Virus record (IMG/VR): IMGVR_UViG_3300021246_000107
Location: 1-52,961 of that record
Direction: 5' to 3' (one strand)
DNA length: 52,961 nucleotides
Source: a virus
Shown here in pieces: positions 34,700 through 41,179 of this stretch. Positions within the stretch are counted from its first letter, which is position 1. Each line of letters starts with the position of its first letter. A program made the position numbers and the translations under genes. Under the pieces are notes generated by a model. The model made no database searches, was not told the DNA's origin, and was given only the letters and a program-made list of their open reading frames with translations.

Positions 34700-36066
34700 C
34701 AGAATTTTTCCTTGCTGTAACGACTGGCCATGCTGGTGACCTTCTGAGGTTTCTGCGGCTCAACCCATCCCGCCGCCAGTTGCTCGAACCGGCTGTACTG
34801 ACCCAGGAACGCCGTTCGAACGGTACCGGTTTCGATATCCCGGCCCTTGCCGATGATGATTTCGGCAATGCCTTTCGCTTCGGAATGCTCGTGATAGACC
34901 TCGTCGCGGTACACGAACAGGATGATGTCGGCGTCCTGCTCAATGGCACCGGATTCGCGCAAGTCAGAACACATTGGGCGCTTGTTCGGGCGCTTCTCGC
35001 ATTCGCGAGAGAGCTGGCTAAGCAAGATCACCGGTATGCCCAGCTCACGAGCCATCAGCTTTGCCGTACGGGTCATGTGACTGACCTCCTGCTCGCGGCT
35101 GAACGTGCGCGAGTCGGATTCGACCAACTGCAGGTAATCGATCACCATCAGATCCAAGCCGTATCGGCGCTTGTGGCGACGTGCGGCAGCGCGCATCCGG
35201 TTCATCGACATTGACGCGCGGTCAGAAAGGTACAGGCTGGAGTGCTTAAGCTTGCCTGCGGCGCTCATCAGCTCAGCACCATGGCTGTGTGGGGCCTTGC
35301 CGTTTTTGATCAGTTGCAGCGGTATGCGCCCTTCGGACGCCATGAAACGGTCCATCAGGCCCGTGTTATCCATTTCGAGACTGAATGCCATCACGCTCTT
35401 GCCCTCACGAATTGCAGCGTGGGCTGCGATGTTCATGGCCAGGGTGGTTTTCCCCATAGCTGGACGGCCGGCGATAATGATCAGTTGGCCAGGCTTGAGC
35501 CCCTGCAGTTTTTCGTCTAGGCCGGGAATGCCAGTGGATAGCCCATCAATCTCGTCACCTCGGTCGGCTCGGGCCTGAAGCACCTCGATGTAGTCATCCA
35601 AGATGTCCTCAGCCTTGATTACCTCGGACGTGGCCGACTGGCTATCGACAGCCTGGGCCTCAGCCTGTACCGCTGCGACTTTGTCCGCCGTGGGCTGGTC
35701 GCCATAAGCGATGTCGTTGATCCGAACGCTCAGCTCAAGCAGTGACCTATCCAGGCTGCGCTCGCGTACGGTGCCGGCGTAGGAAGCGGCGTTCGCAACG
35801 CTCGGGGTGTTGCGGGCGATATCGGCGGCATACGCGAAGGCGGGAGCCCCACAAGGTAGGTCGCCGACGCGAGCGCCGATAGTCACGATGTCAACTGGCT
35901 GGCCGGCGCCATGCAAGTCCAAGATGCCGCGATAGATGGCGGCGTTGTCCTCGTAGTAGAAATCCTCGACCGCCAGGTCAGCACTGAGCAAGTCGATCAA
36001 CTCGGGGCGCAGAAACATCGCACCCAACACGCCATGTTCGGCCTCAAGGCTGTATGGATCACGCAT
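34699..36066 (-). CDS. dnaB: Replicative DNA helicase (DnaB family)
   Basis: A 455-residue hexameric helicase. The N-terminal domain (EAEHGVLGAMFLRPELIDLL) and the C-terminal ATPase (Walker A GRPAMGKTTLAMN at about 200-212, Walker B LDLMVIDYLQLVE) are complete, as is the RSGAIEQDAD-like end motif (RESGAIEQDADIILFVYRDE). The phage thus carries its own helicase, loaded by the O-like protein with which it overlaps. Confidence 0.95.
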   Translation of the reverse strand: MRDPYSLEAEHGVLGAMFLRPELIDLLSADLAVEDFYYEDNAAIYRGILDLHGAGQPVDIVTIGARVGDLPCGAPAFAYAADIARNTPSVANAASYAGTVRERSLDRSLLELSVRINDIAYGDQPTADKVAAVQAEAQAVDSQSATSEVIKAEDILDDYIEVLQARADRGDEIDGLSTGIPGLDEKLQGLKPGQLIIIAGRPAMGKTTLAMNIAAHAAIREGKSVMAFSLEMDNTGLMDRFMASEGRIPLQLIKNGKAPHSHGAELMSAAGKLKHSSLYLSDRASMSMNRMRAAARRHKRRYGLDLMVIDYLQLVESDSRTFSREQEVSHMTRTAKLMARELGIPVILLSQLSRECEKRPNKRPMCSDLRESGAIEQDADIILFVYRDEVYHEHSEAKGIAEIIIGKGRDIETGTVRTAFLGQYSRFEQLAAGWVEPQKPQKVTSMASRYSKEKF

Positions 36067-36766
36067 TGAAATTACCCTCGATGACCTTCACGAAGTTGGT
36101 CGGGGCGATAAGCCAGTCAAACACCGCGCGGAACGGTTTGCTGTTTCGCCCTTCGGTCTGGCCCATCAGGAAGGGACTAGCACCAACCAACTTGAAGAAG
36201 TCCGACCAGAAATCGAGATCCTGGTGAACCACACTCTCATTCCACCGGGCGTTGAGAGTTGCGATACGGGCCTTGGTAATCATCACCACCCGAGGGAGTC
36301 CGGGAAGAGTTTCGTTGAACAGATCGACGATGGCCTGGGTCGGGCATTTCGGCTTCACGGCTTTCGACAAATTTTCAGCAGCACGAAGAGGTGATGGTTC
36401 ACTTGATGGTTCTATTACGGTTCTGGGTGCGGCTGCTGCGGGGGGGGTGTGCTTCTCCTGCGGGGGTGGTGGTGCTTCTCCTGCGGGGCGCATCTCCTGC
36501 GGGGGTGCATATGCTGCGGGGGTTAGGGTGTACATAGTCGAGCGACCCATGCGCTCGCGAAATGACAGAATCCCGGTTGTGCCAAGCCACTTGATTGCCG
36601 ACTGGACCGTGCGCTCTCCCAGGCAGGTACGCTCAGCGATACGAGCTACCGAAGGCCAGCAAACGCCCTCGTCGTTTGCATTGTCAGCCAGCGATATCAG
36701 AACAGCCTTCTGCGGGCCGCTCATGCCTTGCAACGGCCAGCACAGGCTCATGATGATAGTGCTCAT
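36059..36766 (-). CDS. Replication initiator, O-like, with N-terminal winged helix
   Basis: A 235-residue protein. The N-terminal helix-turn-helix (GPQKAVLISLADNANDEGVC, then ERTVQSAIKWLGTTGILSF) is that of phage O-type initiators. A proline-rich linker (residues 88-122) encoded by iteron-like DNA follows. The C-terminal domain (WWNESVVHQ-like, FFKLVGASPFLMGQTEGRNS, FDWLIAPTNF) is common in these initiators and likely contacts DnaB. Gene order O-DnaB matches lambdoid O-P organisation. Confidence 0.88.
   Translation of the reverse strand: MSTIIMSLCWPLQGMSGPQKAVLISLADNANDEGVCWPSVARIAERTCLGERTVQSAIKWLGTTGILSFRERMGRSTMYTLTPAAYAPPQEMRPAGEAPPPPQEKHTPPAAAAPRTVIEPSSEPSPLRAAENLSKAVKPKCPTQAIVDLFNETLPGLPRVVMITKARIATLNARWNESVVHQDLDFWSDFFKLVGASPFLMGQTEGRNSKPFRAVFDWLIAPTNFVKVIEGNFNA
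36436..36521. repeat. Five CTGCGGGG repeats inside the O-like gene (candidate origin)
   Basis: CTGCGGGG occurs at 36436, 36458, 36481, 36497 and 36514, three times preceded by TCTC. Spacing is 22, 23, 16 and 17 bases. In lambda the origin iterons are inside gene O. Here the repeats encode the Pro-rich linker, so they could simply reflect repeated PPQE codons; both explanations can be true together. Confidence 0.5.
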
Positions 36767-38320: not shown

Positions 38321-38548
38321 TTAGGCGGCGGATTTCTTTGGGTGTTTTTGGGGAGGGAATGCGTCGTCTAGCCCGCATTCCGCACCAAGGGCATTCAGTG
38401 CGCGGACGATAAGACGAGCCTCACTAAGGCCAGGGCTTCGCAACCCCGACTCATAATTCGCAAGGCGGGATTGATTCCAGCCGAGCGCCCGACGCAGTGC
38501 GGCCTGAGTAATGCCAGCCCTCTCGCGGATCATTCGGACCTGATTCAT
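38321..38548 (-). CDS. Cro-like HTH regulator
   Basis: A 75-residue protein from ATG 38548 with AAGGAG at optimal distance. The helix-turn-helix (MIRERAGITQAALRRALGWN, QSRLANYESGLRSPGLSEAR) is close to that of the CI-like repressor (ISQAKLAESCGWSQSRVGNY), so both probably recognise the same operators. It is the first leftward gene from the shared promoter region. Confidence 0.85.
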   Translation of the reverse strand: MNQVRMIRERAGITQAALRRALGWNQSRLANYESGLRSPGLSEARLIVRALNALGAECGLDDAFPPQKHPKKSAA

Positions 38549-38573
38549 TTGGCACTCCTTCATAGATAATCAC

Positions 38574-38602
38574 AGGATAAACACGTTACGTGTTATTTAC
38601 AA
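38574..38602 (-). promoter_or_regulatory. Leftward early promoter (PR-like)
   Basis: Minus strand -35 TTGTAA (38597-38602) and -10 TATCCT (38574-38579), 17 bases apart, with the first operator-like palindrome filling the spacer. It would drive the cro-like and replication genes. Matches are 4/6 for each hexamer. Confidence 0.55.
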
Positions 38603-38639
38603 ACACAATAAGTGAAAGCCGGGTATTTCAATACGTGAT
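38580..38639. promoter_or_regulatory. Three operator-like sites (OR cluster)
   Basis: AACACGTTACGTGTT (38580-38594), AACACAATAAGTGAA (38602-38616) and ATTTCAATACGTGAT (38625-38639) share the pattern AACAC-RWT-ACGTGWT. Their centres are 22 and 23 bases apart, like OR1-3 of lambda. They lie between the divergent cro-like and CI genes. Confidence 0.75.
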
Positions 38640-38651
38640 TGAATTCTGCAA

Positions 38652-39488
38652 ATGAATGAATCAATCGCACAGCGCATTAAGCGCGTCAGAGGTGTTGCTG
38701 GAATTTCTCAGGCAAAGCTTGCGGAGTCGTGTGGGTGGTCGCAGTCCCGCGTGGGAAATTACGAAGCAGGGACGCGAGAGCCTTCCTTAGCGGATATCGA
38801 ATCCATGGCGAAAGCTCTAGGAGTAGATAAGTCAGAACTTCTTATGGATATGCGCCCCGTGGACTCCATGCGGCAAGGCCTGACATCAGGCTCGCCTAGC
38901 GGCGTCTCCTCTGTCGAGATCGTTAGACAGATGCTCGCGAAGCATGGCAAAAACCTGACGGAAGACGCTCGAAGGATGATCGCGGCCGCGGTAGACGAGA
39001 CTGTCAGGGAGGTGAGCACTGGCAACGTCATAACTGTCGATTTCTCTCGTCATGGCCAAGTCGGAGACGAGGTCTGGATCGCGCACTACGACGTTCGAGC
39101 CGCTATGGGCGGTGGGCAGATCCCGCACGAATTCCCGGAAATGCTCCAGGATATAAGGGTCAGCCCCAAACATCTGCGCGAGATGGGCGTCACGTTCAAA
39201 GAGCACTTCCATCTCAAGATGATTACTGGGTGGGGCCAGTCCATGGCCCCGACGATCAAAGATCGCGACCCCTTGCTCGTTGACATCACCATCAGGGAGT
39301 TCACTGGGGACGGTATCTACCTCTTCTCTCACGACGAAATGCTTTACGTGAAGCGCCTGCAAAAGAAAGGTAAGGATCGCTTCAAGATGATCTCGGACAA
39401 CAAGCACCACGACCCAGAAGACATCCGGGTGGACGACACCCACATCCTGGCACGGGTGCTTTATGTATGGAACGGACAACCGGTATGA
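38652..39488 (+). CDS. CI-like lysogeny repressor with S24 domain
   Basis: A 278-residue repressor. The N-terminal HTH (AGISQAKLAESCGWSQSRVG, residues 16-35) is followed by a linker and a C-terminal LexA/S24 domain with the catalytic Ser197 in WGQSMAP and Lys234 in LYVKRL. A canonical Ala-Gly cleavage bond is not obvious; AAMGGG at about 150-155 is the likely autoproteolysis region. RecA-stimulated self-cleavage would induce the prophage. It is divergent from the cro-like gene across three operators. Confidence 0.93.
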   Translation: MNESIAQRIKRVRGVAGISQAKLAESCGWSQSRVGNYEAGTREPSLADIESMAKALGVDKSELLMDMRPVDSMRQGLTSGSPSGVSSVEIVRQMLAKHGKNLTEDARRMIAAAVDETVREVSTGNVITVDFSRHGQVGDEVWIAHYDVRAAMGGGQIPHEFPEMLQDIRVSPKHLREMGVTFKEHFHLKMITGWGQSMAPTIKDRDPLLVDITIREFTGDGIYLFSHDEMLYVKRLQKKGKDRFKMISDNKHHDPEDIRVDDTHILARVLYVWNGQPV

Positions 39489-39492
39489 CTCC

Positions 39493-39729
39493 ATGCCCCT
39501 CAAAAAACCCAACCAACAACTGCGCCGCGACTTGAAAGAGGCCGCAGCCCTTCTGAAATGGGCAGGCGTTGATTTATTTGTCGTGGCAAAGCAAATGCTG
39601 GCCGCAGGCGATGAGCCGGGTGCGAACGATTTGATGAAGATCGCGCTGAGCTTTCAGGAGACTGAGGATAGGTTGCAGGCGTATGCGGATGAGGTGAAAG
39701 CGGGAAGGATTGTGCGCGTGGAAAGCTAG
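39493..39729 (+). CDS. Small protein co-transcribed with CI
   Basis: A 78-residue helical protein (LRRDLKEAAALLKWAGVDLF, VVAKQMLAAGDEPGANDLMK) that starts five bases after the CI stop. It would be expressed in the lysogen with the repressor, in the position that rexA/rexB hold in lambda. No family recognised. Confidence 0.65.
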   Translation: MPLKKPNQQLRRDLKEAAALLKWAGVDLFVVAKQMLAAGDEPGANDLMKIALSFQETEDRLQAYADEVKAGRIVRVES

Positions 39730-39782
39730 AGTAGAAGGCACAACGAATCTGGTCACTCGACCATCACAAGGGGGCGAATCTG

Positions 39783-40301
39783 GTGACAACCATCAAGTTC
39801 AGTTACAGGGATGCAAAGGGCGACTTGAGTCAGCGCGAGCTGATCCAATGGTCAGAGAACTCGCTCTACATTCAGGGAAGGTCTGCTACTGACCCATTCC
39901 CAAAAACCTTCAGGAAAGACCGCATAGTTGAAGTTCACTTTGGTGCCGAGCTGCTGCTGAATGACGCCGCGCCACCAGCTCCAACCTTGCTGCCAAAACC
40001 ACGTCCAGCGGCCATAGCCGGATCGGGCGCTCCTCCCCACCATCCACAACCAAAGGTACCGCCCGGCGGCATTAACCAAATTCTCTTCACTGGTTTCGCG
40101 GCTGCACACCGGGCTGAGCTTGAGCAAAAGGCGCTGGATTCAGGGCTCAAGGTTATGAGTACGCCTGGCAAAACGCTGACTTTTCTCTGCTATGGCGATA
40201 ACGCCGGCCCTACTAAGGTTGCGAAAGCACAGGAGGCCGGAGCCTTCATCATTGATGCTGAGCAGTTTTTGAGTTTGATAATAACTGGTGAGATGCCTTA
40301 G
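39783..40301 (+). CDS. BRCT-domain protein with N-terminal WYL-like segment, lysogenic position
   Basis: About 172 residues starting at GTG 39783, with GGGGG ten bases upstream. The N-terminal strands (IKFSYRDAKGDLSQREL, FPKTFRKDRIVEVHF) resemble a WYL-type fold. A Pro-rich linker is followed by a BRCT-like domain (NQILFTGFAAAHRAELEQKA, LCYGDNAGPTKVAKAQEAG, IIDAEQFLSLI). BRCT domains bind DNA ends or phosphopeptides. It is the last gene before a strong terminator in the CI transcript, so it is expected in the lysogen. Function not known. Confidence 0.75.
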   Translation: MTTIKFSYRDAKGDLSQRELIQWSENSLYIQGRSATDPFPKTFRKDRIVEVHFGAELLLNDAAPPAPTLLPKPRPAAIAGSGAPPHHPQPKVPPGGINQILFTGFAAAHRAELEQKALDSGLKVMSTPGKTLTFLCYGDNAGPTKVAKAQEAGAFIIDAEQFLSLIITGEMP

Positions 40302-40364
40302 CTGGGATGGTGGCGGGATTACACACTGAAAACTCCGGAGGATCGGCAGCTCCGCTGTACAGAG

Positions 40365-40388
40365 AGCCCGCCATCGAGCGGGCTTTTT
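40365..40388 (+). terminator. Terminator of the CI operon
   Basis: AGCCCGC, loop CATCGA, GCGGGCT followed by TTTT. It ends the CI, 39493 and BRCT transcript and is convergent with the DUF1654 gene. Confidence 0.85.
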
Positions 40389-40396
40389 GTTGTCCA

Positions 40397-40708
40397 TCAG
40401 AAAGGCGCCGGATCTTCTTCCTGCTCAAGTTCAACCTCCCCCCTCCCCGCCGTCTCCACCTCCTGCGGCTCCCATCTCACCGTCACGCTGCCGTCGTCAT
40501 TAAGCGTCAACTCAAGCTCGTCCGTGTCGGCAATCACGCCCAAAACCTCCTCCCACTCTCTATCTCCATCCGCGTCTAAGCGATGGATCCTCACCCAGCG
40601 CTGAGTCTGTGCCAAGGGATGATTGATCATTGCCGAAACGCGCAATCCCAGTCGCTCCACACCAGCCATCTCTTGCCGAACGGCCGGTTCCAGATGCTTC
40701 TTTGTCAT
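40397..40708 (-). CDS. DUF1654 protein, SOS-regulated
   Basis: A 103-residue protein. GVERLGLRVSAMINHPLAQT and VLGVIADTDELELTLNDDGS, with RW at the end of the domain, are the DUF1654 signature found in Pseudomonas genomes and phages. The acidic tail (VELEQEEDPAPF) is also typical. Twenty-one bases upstream of the ATG is a perfect LexA box, so the gene is induced by DNA damage. Its molecular role is not known to me. Confidence 0.88.
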   Translation of the reverse strand: MTKKHLEPAVRQEMAGVERLGLRVSAMINHPLAQTQRWVRIHRLDADGDREWEEVLGVIADTDELELTLNDDGSVTVRWEPQEVETAGRGEVELEQEEDPAPF

Positions 40709-40729
40709 GATTTCCCGCCTTCATTATTG

Positions 40730-40745
40730 CTGTATATGCATACAG
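40730..40745. promoter_or_regulatory. LexA (SOS) box before DUF1654
   Basis: CTGTATATGCATACAG, a perfect 16-bp CTGT-N8-ACAG palindrome, 21 bases before the DUF1654 start. It has the same form as the box at 4688-4703. Confidence 0.88.
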
Positions 40746-40816
40746 CTCAGCAAAATCATATCCCGCGAAATTAGAAACCTTAAGTGAAAGGTCGTGTGCT
40801 AATTGACACAATCAAA

Positions 40817-40858
40817 ATCACGTTTCGTGTTGACTAATAAAACACAATACGTGATAGT
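40817..40858 (+). promoter_or_regulatory. Second operator pair with rightward promoter (OL/PL-like)
   Basis: ATCACGTTTCGTGTT (40817-40831) and AACACAATACGTGAT (40841-40855) match the operator pattern of the CI/Cro intergenic region; centres are 24 bases apart. A rightward promoter, -35 TTGACT (40830-40835) and -10 GATAGT (40853-40858) with a 17-base spacer, overlaps the second site, so bound repressor would block it. The 320 bases from here to 41179 hold no gene that I can support and probably form the leader of the right operon. Confidence 0.7.
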
Positions 40859-41179
40859 TCGCCCATCGCATCAACACACCTACTGCGAAGGGCCTCCCGC
40901 CCGCCGCTCTTTGGTTTCACCCCTTGCCGGATCACTACCGGCCCAGATCCAAGGCAGCGATGAACCGGCCTAAACGGTTCAGAGGGTTGGCAACTGACCC
41001 GGGCGTGCAGCGTAAAGCGCCAAGAACAGTTATCCAGCGGGAGAACAAGCCGAAAGGCCCGCGGCTGGGAGAACATTTGATTCAAGCCGGTGACCGACGC
41101 CAGTCGCGGGTCACGGAGGAAGTTTTCACTGATGCACCTGGTTACCCGGGTGCATTGGGAAAACAACCGGAGCATGAGC

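Follow-up and report, generated by a model that had tools for sequence, protein, structure and literature searches.

Genes and operator-like sites of the cro/cI region

The window, that is the whole stretch of DNA analysed here, covers 52,961 bases and is a single IMG/VR virus record from a temperate Pseudomonas phage. A cI repressor gene and a cro-like gene lie divergently in it, with several operators between them (Table 1). Cro is 38% identical to the N-terminal domain of CI over 66 aa, and the helix-turn-helix letters read NQSRLANYESG in Cro and SQSRVGNYEAG in CI. Beyond cI, an 88-aa gene, a BRCT-domain gene and a DUF1654 gene precede a second group of operators, OL. The DUF1654 gene is the one beside OL, and its segment is the homologous flank of OL in many relatives. 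A search of the three PR-operon genes scanned besides cro, using Pfam and PHROG, gave no match to CII. At the left end of the record, positions 1 to 1291 are 86.5% identical to transposase and pilin-like genes of Pseudomonas phage MD8 and are probably an insertion element.

Table 1. Features of the region, in window coordinates except for the last row, which gives positions in individual related loci
Feature	Position	Strand	Description
Isolated operator-like match	36058-36072		15.6 bits
O-like replication protein	36059-36766	-	PR operon downstream of cro; PHROG
cro-like gene	38321..38563	-	80 aa; HTH_3/HTH_31 (Pfam)
PR	38574..38602	-	-35 TTGTAA 38602..38597, 17-nt spacer, -10 TATCCT 38579..38574; drives cro
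OR1 AACACGTTACGTGTT	38580..38594	+	fills PR spacer; 21.8 bits, rank 3 of window
OR2 AACACAATAAGTGAA	38602..38616	+	touches PR -35; 13.7 bits, rank 6
OR3 ATTTCAATACGTGAT	38625..38639	+	over presumed PRM; 16.7 bits, rank 4
cI repressor	38652..39488	+	278 aa; HTH 6-65, S24-like C-terminal domain 174-269; Pfam PF01381, PF00717; PHROG phrog_4
88-aa gene, cI-OL interval	39463..39729	+	phrog_6388, function not assigned
BRCT-domain protein, cI-OL interval	39783..40301	+	172 aa; Pfam PF00533; phrog_2561
DUF1654 protein, beside OL	40397..40708	-	103 aa; Pfam PF07867
OL2 ATCACGTTTCGTGTT	40817..40831	+	overlaps PL -35; 22.4 bits, rank 1
PL	40830..40858	+	TTGACT-17-GATAGT; transcribes away from cI
OL1 AACACAATACGTGAT	40841..40855	+	fills PL spacer; 21.9 bits, rank 2
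Structured PL-transcript leader	40944..41076	+	~133 nt, several hairpins, directly downstream of PL
Examples of cargo intervals in relatives	L009:5553-7376, L007:5670-8144, L136:5667-7667, L051:5462-7154, L152:5360-6757

A sequence-only reading of this region had claimed five 15-base sites with a shared consensus, spaced 22 to 24 bases apart within their clusters. All five are present, and their successive starts are 22, 23 and 24 bases apart. The consensus held less strictly: it is exact at OR1 and OL1, has two mismatches at OR2 and OL2 and three at OR3. With up to three mismatches allowed it matches 7 times in the window, where 4.06 matches would be expected, and 7 or more occur in 15 of 100 shuffles; the mismatch-tolerant search, not being significant alone, was dropped as proof. 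This lack of rarity in shuffles is what speaks for regarding the recurrence of the motif as chance or as a general effect of composition. Against it stands an independent matrix, for which 32 operators were taken from other phages and none from the window; it ranks the sites 1 to 4 and 6 of the whole window. The top three score 22.4, 21.9 and 21.8 bits, compared with a mean best score of 13.2 and a maximum of 18.2 bits in simulated windows (n = 100). Eight operator types also recur in related phages, at the same place and in the same layout, and we give chance practically no credence. The significance of the sites thus derives from their clustering and from the independent matrix, not from the consensus count. 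OR2 and OR3 match the operators less well than the other three sites, so their occupancy is uncertain.

Each cluster overlaps an outward promoter, as had also been claimed, with OR1 in the spacer of PR, OL1 in that of PL, and both promoters directed away from cI. It should be noted that PR has a weak consensus, was read by eye and is absent from the list of the sigma-70 scan. PL is the only sigma-70-like site that the scan returned between 38400 and 41300.

The leader of the PL transcript is about 90% identical in DNA across phages of different CI and operator types and occurs in one copy per locus (16/86 sources searched). Covariation in it is small, with five pairs showing double (compensatory) changes in 14 sequences and an energy z of -2.2, and the leader has no match in Rfam. 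A second copy near PR, in the manner of putL and putR of HK022, was looked for and is not present in the window. A role in antitermination would be a guess.

Operator type and repressor type in related phages

CI loci were collected from genome and viral contigs; in 157 of them the DNA downstream of cI extends for 1.5 kb or more. All these CI relatives have the C-terminal domain in common, but at least eight types of N-terminal domain (A to H) can be told apart among them, G being related to H. The CI of the window is of type A. Cro and CI often share letters of the recognition helix; examples are QSRxxNYE (type A) and TYEAVRQW (type C).

We made one matrix per type from OR sites only and used it, with exact p-values, to look downstream of cI for pairs of sites separated by 18-32 bp. 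These matrices replaced an earlier similarity score of 15-mers between OR and downstream DNA, which separated own from other types only partly. The near pair G and H was not counted against each other in the scoring of other types. A site pair of the own type, scoring at least 9.9, was found downstream of cI in 140 of the 157 loci, and matrices of other types scored at most 9.4 in every locus except L038. The layout of OL is constant: two sites, at a distance of 23-26 bp, enclose a -35-like TTGAC, which reads TTTAC in type B and is TTGCA-like in type C; nearly all own-type pairs have such a TTGAC-like box. The pair is absent from 17 of the 157 loci, L038 included, and in many of these OL may lie beyond the available flanks (up to 4.5 kb).

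The lambda-like dual control through OR and OL that had been read from the window is thus strongly supported by the relatives: the operator type of OL equals the type of the CI DNA-binding domain in 140 loci and eight types, with one mismatch. On this comparison, control of OR and OL by one shared repressor specificity appears very well supported. Alternatively, CI might use OR alone, and OL might chiefly serve Cro or some other regulator whose motif happens to be the same. The similarity of the recognition helices of Cro and CI would fit this. Yet the OL sites match the operator consensus no less closely than the OR sites do, and the OL type follows the type of the CI DNA-binding domain. Cro and that domain are exchanged in one block, so that comparison cannot separate the roles of the two proteins. 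We consider it very improbable that OL escapes CI.

The single mismatch, L038, comes from P. agarici LMG 2112 (contig NZ_FOAR01000049.1) and has CI and OR of type H but an OL of type B. From inside cI onwards it is 99% identical over 4.9 kb to L041, a type-B locus of the same genome. Both contigs are short, about 9.5 kb, so that an assembly chimera is possible; it is also possible that L038 is a natural recombinant and the mismatch real.

Within type A the geometry of OR is conserved. In almost every one of the 42 type-A loci the OR centres lie at -65, -43 and -20 relative to the start codon of cI, and the position of OR2 is the same in 42 of 42. No ribosome-binding site was evident by eye before cI. 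Should the cI transcript begin at the AUG, as the lambda one does, OR2 would occupy the position from which CI activates PRM in lambda. An operator-like site is placed over the cI start codon in types B, D and E (L018, L023, L001 and L015), with its centre near 0 where that of type A is at -20; this perhaps reflects a different mode of autoregulation.

When the window was scanned for further copies of the motif, as the sequence-only reading had suggested, the two clusters and one weak, isolated match were obtained. The latter lies at the 3' end of the O-like gene, has no counterpart in the type-A relatives scanned, and is most likely a chance coding match. No third OL site was found within 60 bp of OL in the window, nor in type A; candidates occur only in type F and, rarely, in types D or E.

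Probable exchange of immunity specificity

The DNA on either side of the operators shows how finely the types are exchanged. The boundary of the domain swap in cI lies near residue 123. Homology between the window and phages of other types usually begins near 39022 (cI codon ~123) and ends by about 40760; in several of these phages it picks up again at 40863-40926, immediately beyond OL. The block exchanged with the CI DNA-binding domain includes cro. Close pairs of loci give the same picture. The last 423 bp of cI are 98.8% identical between L005 (type A) and L122 (type E), each of which has its own OL type. Between L085 (type A) and L029 (type F), about 97 bp at OL are replaced, the flanking segments being 87% and 98% identical; here homology runs to about 50 bp before OL and resumes after it.

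On a quick tree of the C-terminal domain, made from the 119 loci with a scored own-type OL, parsimony counts about 50 changes of DNA-binding-domain type, a number inflated by tree error and by recombination inside the domain. The OL type likewise changes about 50 times, and the two counts agree because the loci of the tree were selected for an own-type OL. The independent evidence therefore lies in the small number of loci left out, 17 of 157 with L038 among them.

We consider it fairly probable that immunity specificity in these Pseudomonas phages is a two-patch cassette, both parts of which have been replaced repeatedly in concert. The first patch would comprise cro, OR and the CI DNA-binding domain, and the second about 100 bp at OL, while the C-terminal domain, the DUF1654 segment and the PL leader stay homologous; at least eight specificities would then sit on one C-terminal chassis. 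No description of such a two-patch exchange was found in the small sample of literature searched, and its scale and fineness may be the less usual aspect of the system.

The interval between cI and OL is also variable. In the relatives, its open reading frames of 150 aa or more fall into 76 unrelated clusters, though some of the frames may not be genes. They include an AAA ATPase (OLD/PtuA-like), an HSDR_N-like protein, an HSP90-like ATPase, an IrrE-like peptidase and Schlafen/AlbA domains, and some of the products resemble defence proteins. Judging from this content, the interval is likely a hotspot for lysogenic conversion or defence, in the position of rex.

Proposed control and relation to known immunity regions

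We read the region, with high confidence, as a phage immunity region of bipartite build, like those of the lambda/D3 kind. In brief, dimers of CI would bind OR1-3 and, about 2.2 kb away, OL2 and OL1. With OR1 and OL1 occupied in the spacers of PR and PL, both early operons would be shut off. During lytic growth the same operators are most likely read by Cro, whose recognition helix is similar. CI on OR2 probably activates its own promoter, and occupancy of OR3 probably lowers it. The sequences themselves establish the sites, their arrangement and the link of both clusters to the type of CI DNA-binding domain in the relatives; CI binding at OR and OL, activation at OR2 and the OL-OR loop discussed below are inferred.

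In lambda, three OR sites lie between cro and cI, OL and PL lie beyond the cI operon, and OR2 is near -42 from the cI start. The window resembles lambda in its three OR sites, in an OL and PL beyond the cI operon, in cargo between cI and OL in the position of rex, and in OR2 at -43. Unlike lambda, which has three OL sites, it has two, and its 15-bp sites and its cargo are different. Of the features that characterise lambda/D3-like immunity regions, the window has divergent cro and cI genes, a repressor with HTH and S24 domains, a replication gene in the PR operon downstream of cro and, past the cI operon, a further cluster of its operators over an outward early promoter.

Like the window, Pseudomonas aeruginosa phage D3 (AF165214) has divergent cro and cI genes. 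Its three annotated OR operators, each of 14 bp, follow one another at 24 bp, their centres standing near positions -67, -43 and -19 relative to the cI start. We located the OL of D3 at ATGGGGAAACTCATTGACAACGAATATGAGCAATCTCAT, about 1 kb after the cI start, in a site-TTGACA-site layout like that of the window. The interval between cI and OL is shorter in D3 than in the window. The operators of D3 are ATGGGNATNCCCAT-like and unrelated in sequence to those of the window, and the two CI proteins are 27% identical only in part of the S24 domain. By its gene order and operator layout, the window system belongs with immunity regions of the lambda/D3 type, a known plan.

In HK022 and phiKO2 the repressor gene lies between OL and OR, which are about 700 bp (HK022) and 630 bp (phiKO2) apart, and the repressors loop (PMC8053113); in the phages of the window group, by contrast, the stretch between cI and OL is longer and varies greatly. 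A loop bridged by CI between OL and OR would be an extension of bipartite control, not exclusive with it, and could stabilise repression and tune cI expression as in lambda. Looping is plausible because the repressors of lambda, HK022 and phiKO2 loop in vivo, over natural distances of 0.6-2.3 kb (PMC8053113), and paired sites about two helical turns apart are present at both ends. However, OL lies anywhere from 886 to 5080 bp from the cI start in the relatives; as this distance is not conserved, the 2.2 kb of the window carries no signal. Type A furthermore has no OL3, with three sites at OR and two at OL, and the OL3-OR3 bridge of lambda cannot simply be assumed. On balance we lean slightly towards a loop in addition to bipartite control.

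Repressor and sites co-vary in the window group as in Cluster A mycobacteriophages, in which repressor and stoperators are reported to co-diversify (PMC6550527). In contrast to the stoperators, one weak isolated match was all that the scan of the window gave beyond the two clusters.

Comparison, in the place of a footprint, indicates that one specificity very probably governs both clusters. The immunity group can thereby be predicted from sequence for the window phage and about 140 relatives. The eight pairs of DNA-binding domain and operator on a common C-terminal domain form a natural domain-swap series for testing rules of recognition, and this series raises the question of how two separated patches of DNA get exchanged together. 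If the two-patch reading is true, these phages would offer a ready-made table of helix-turn-helix recognition codes.
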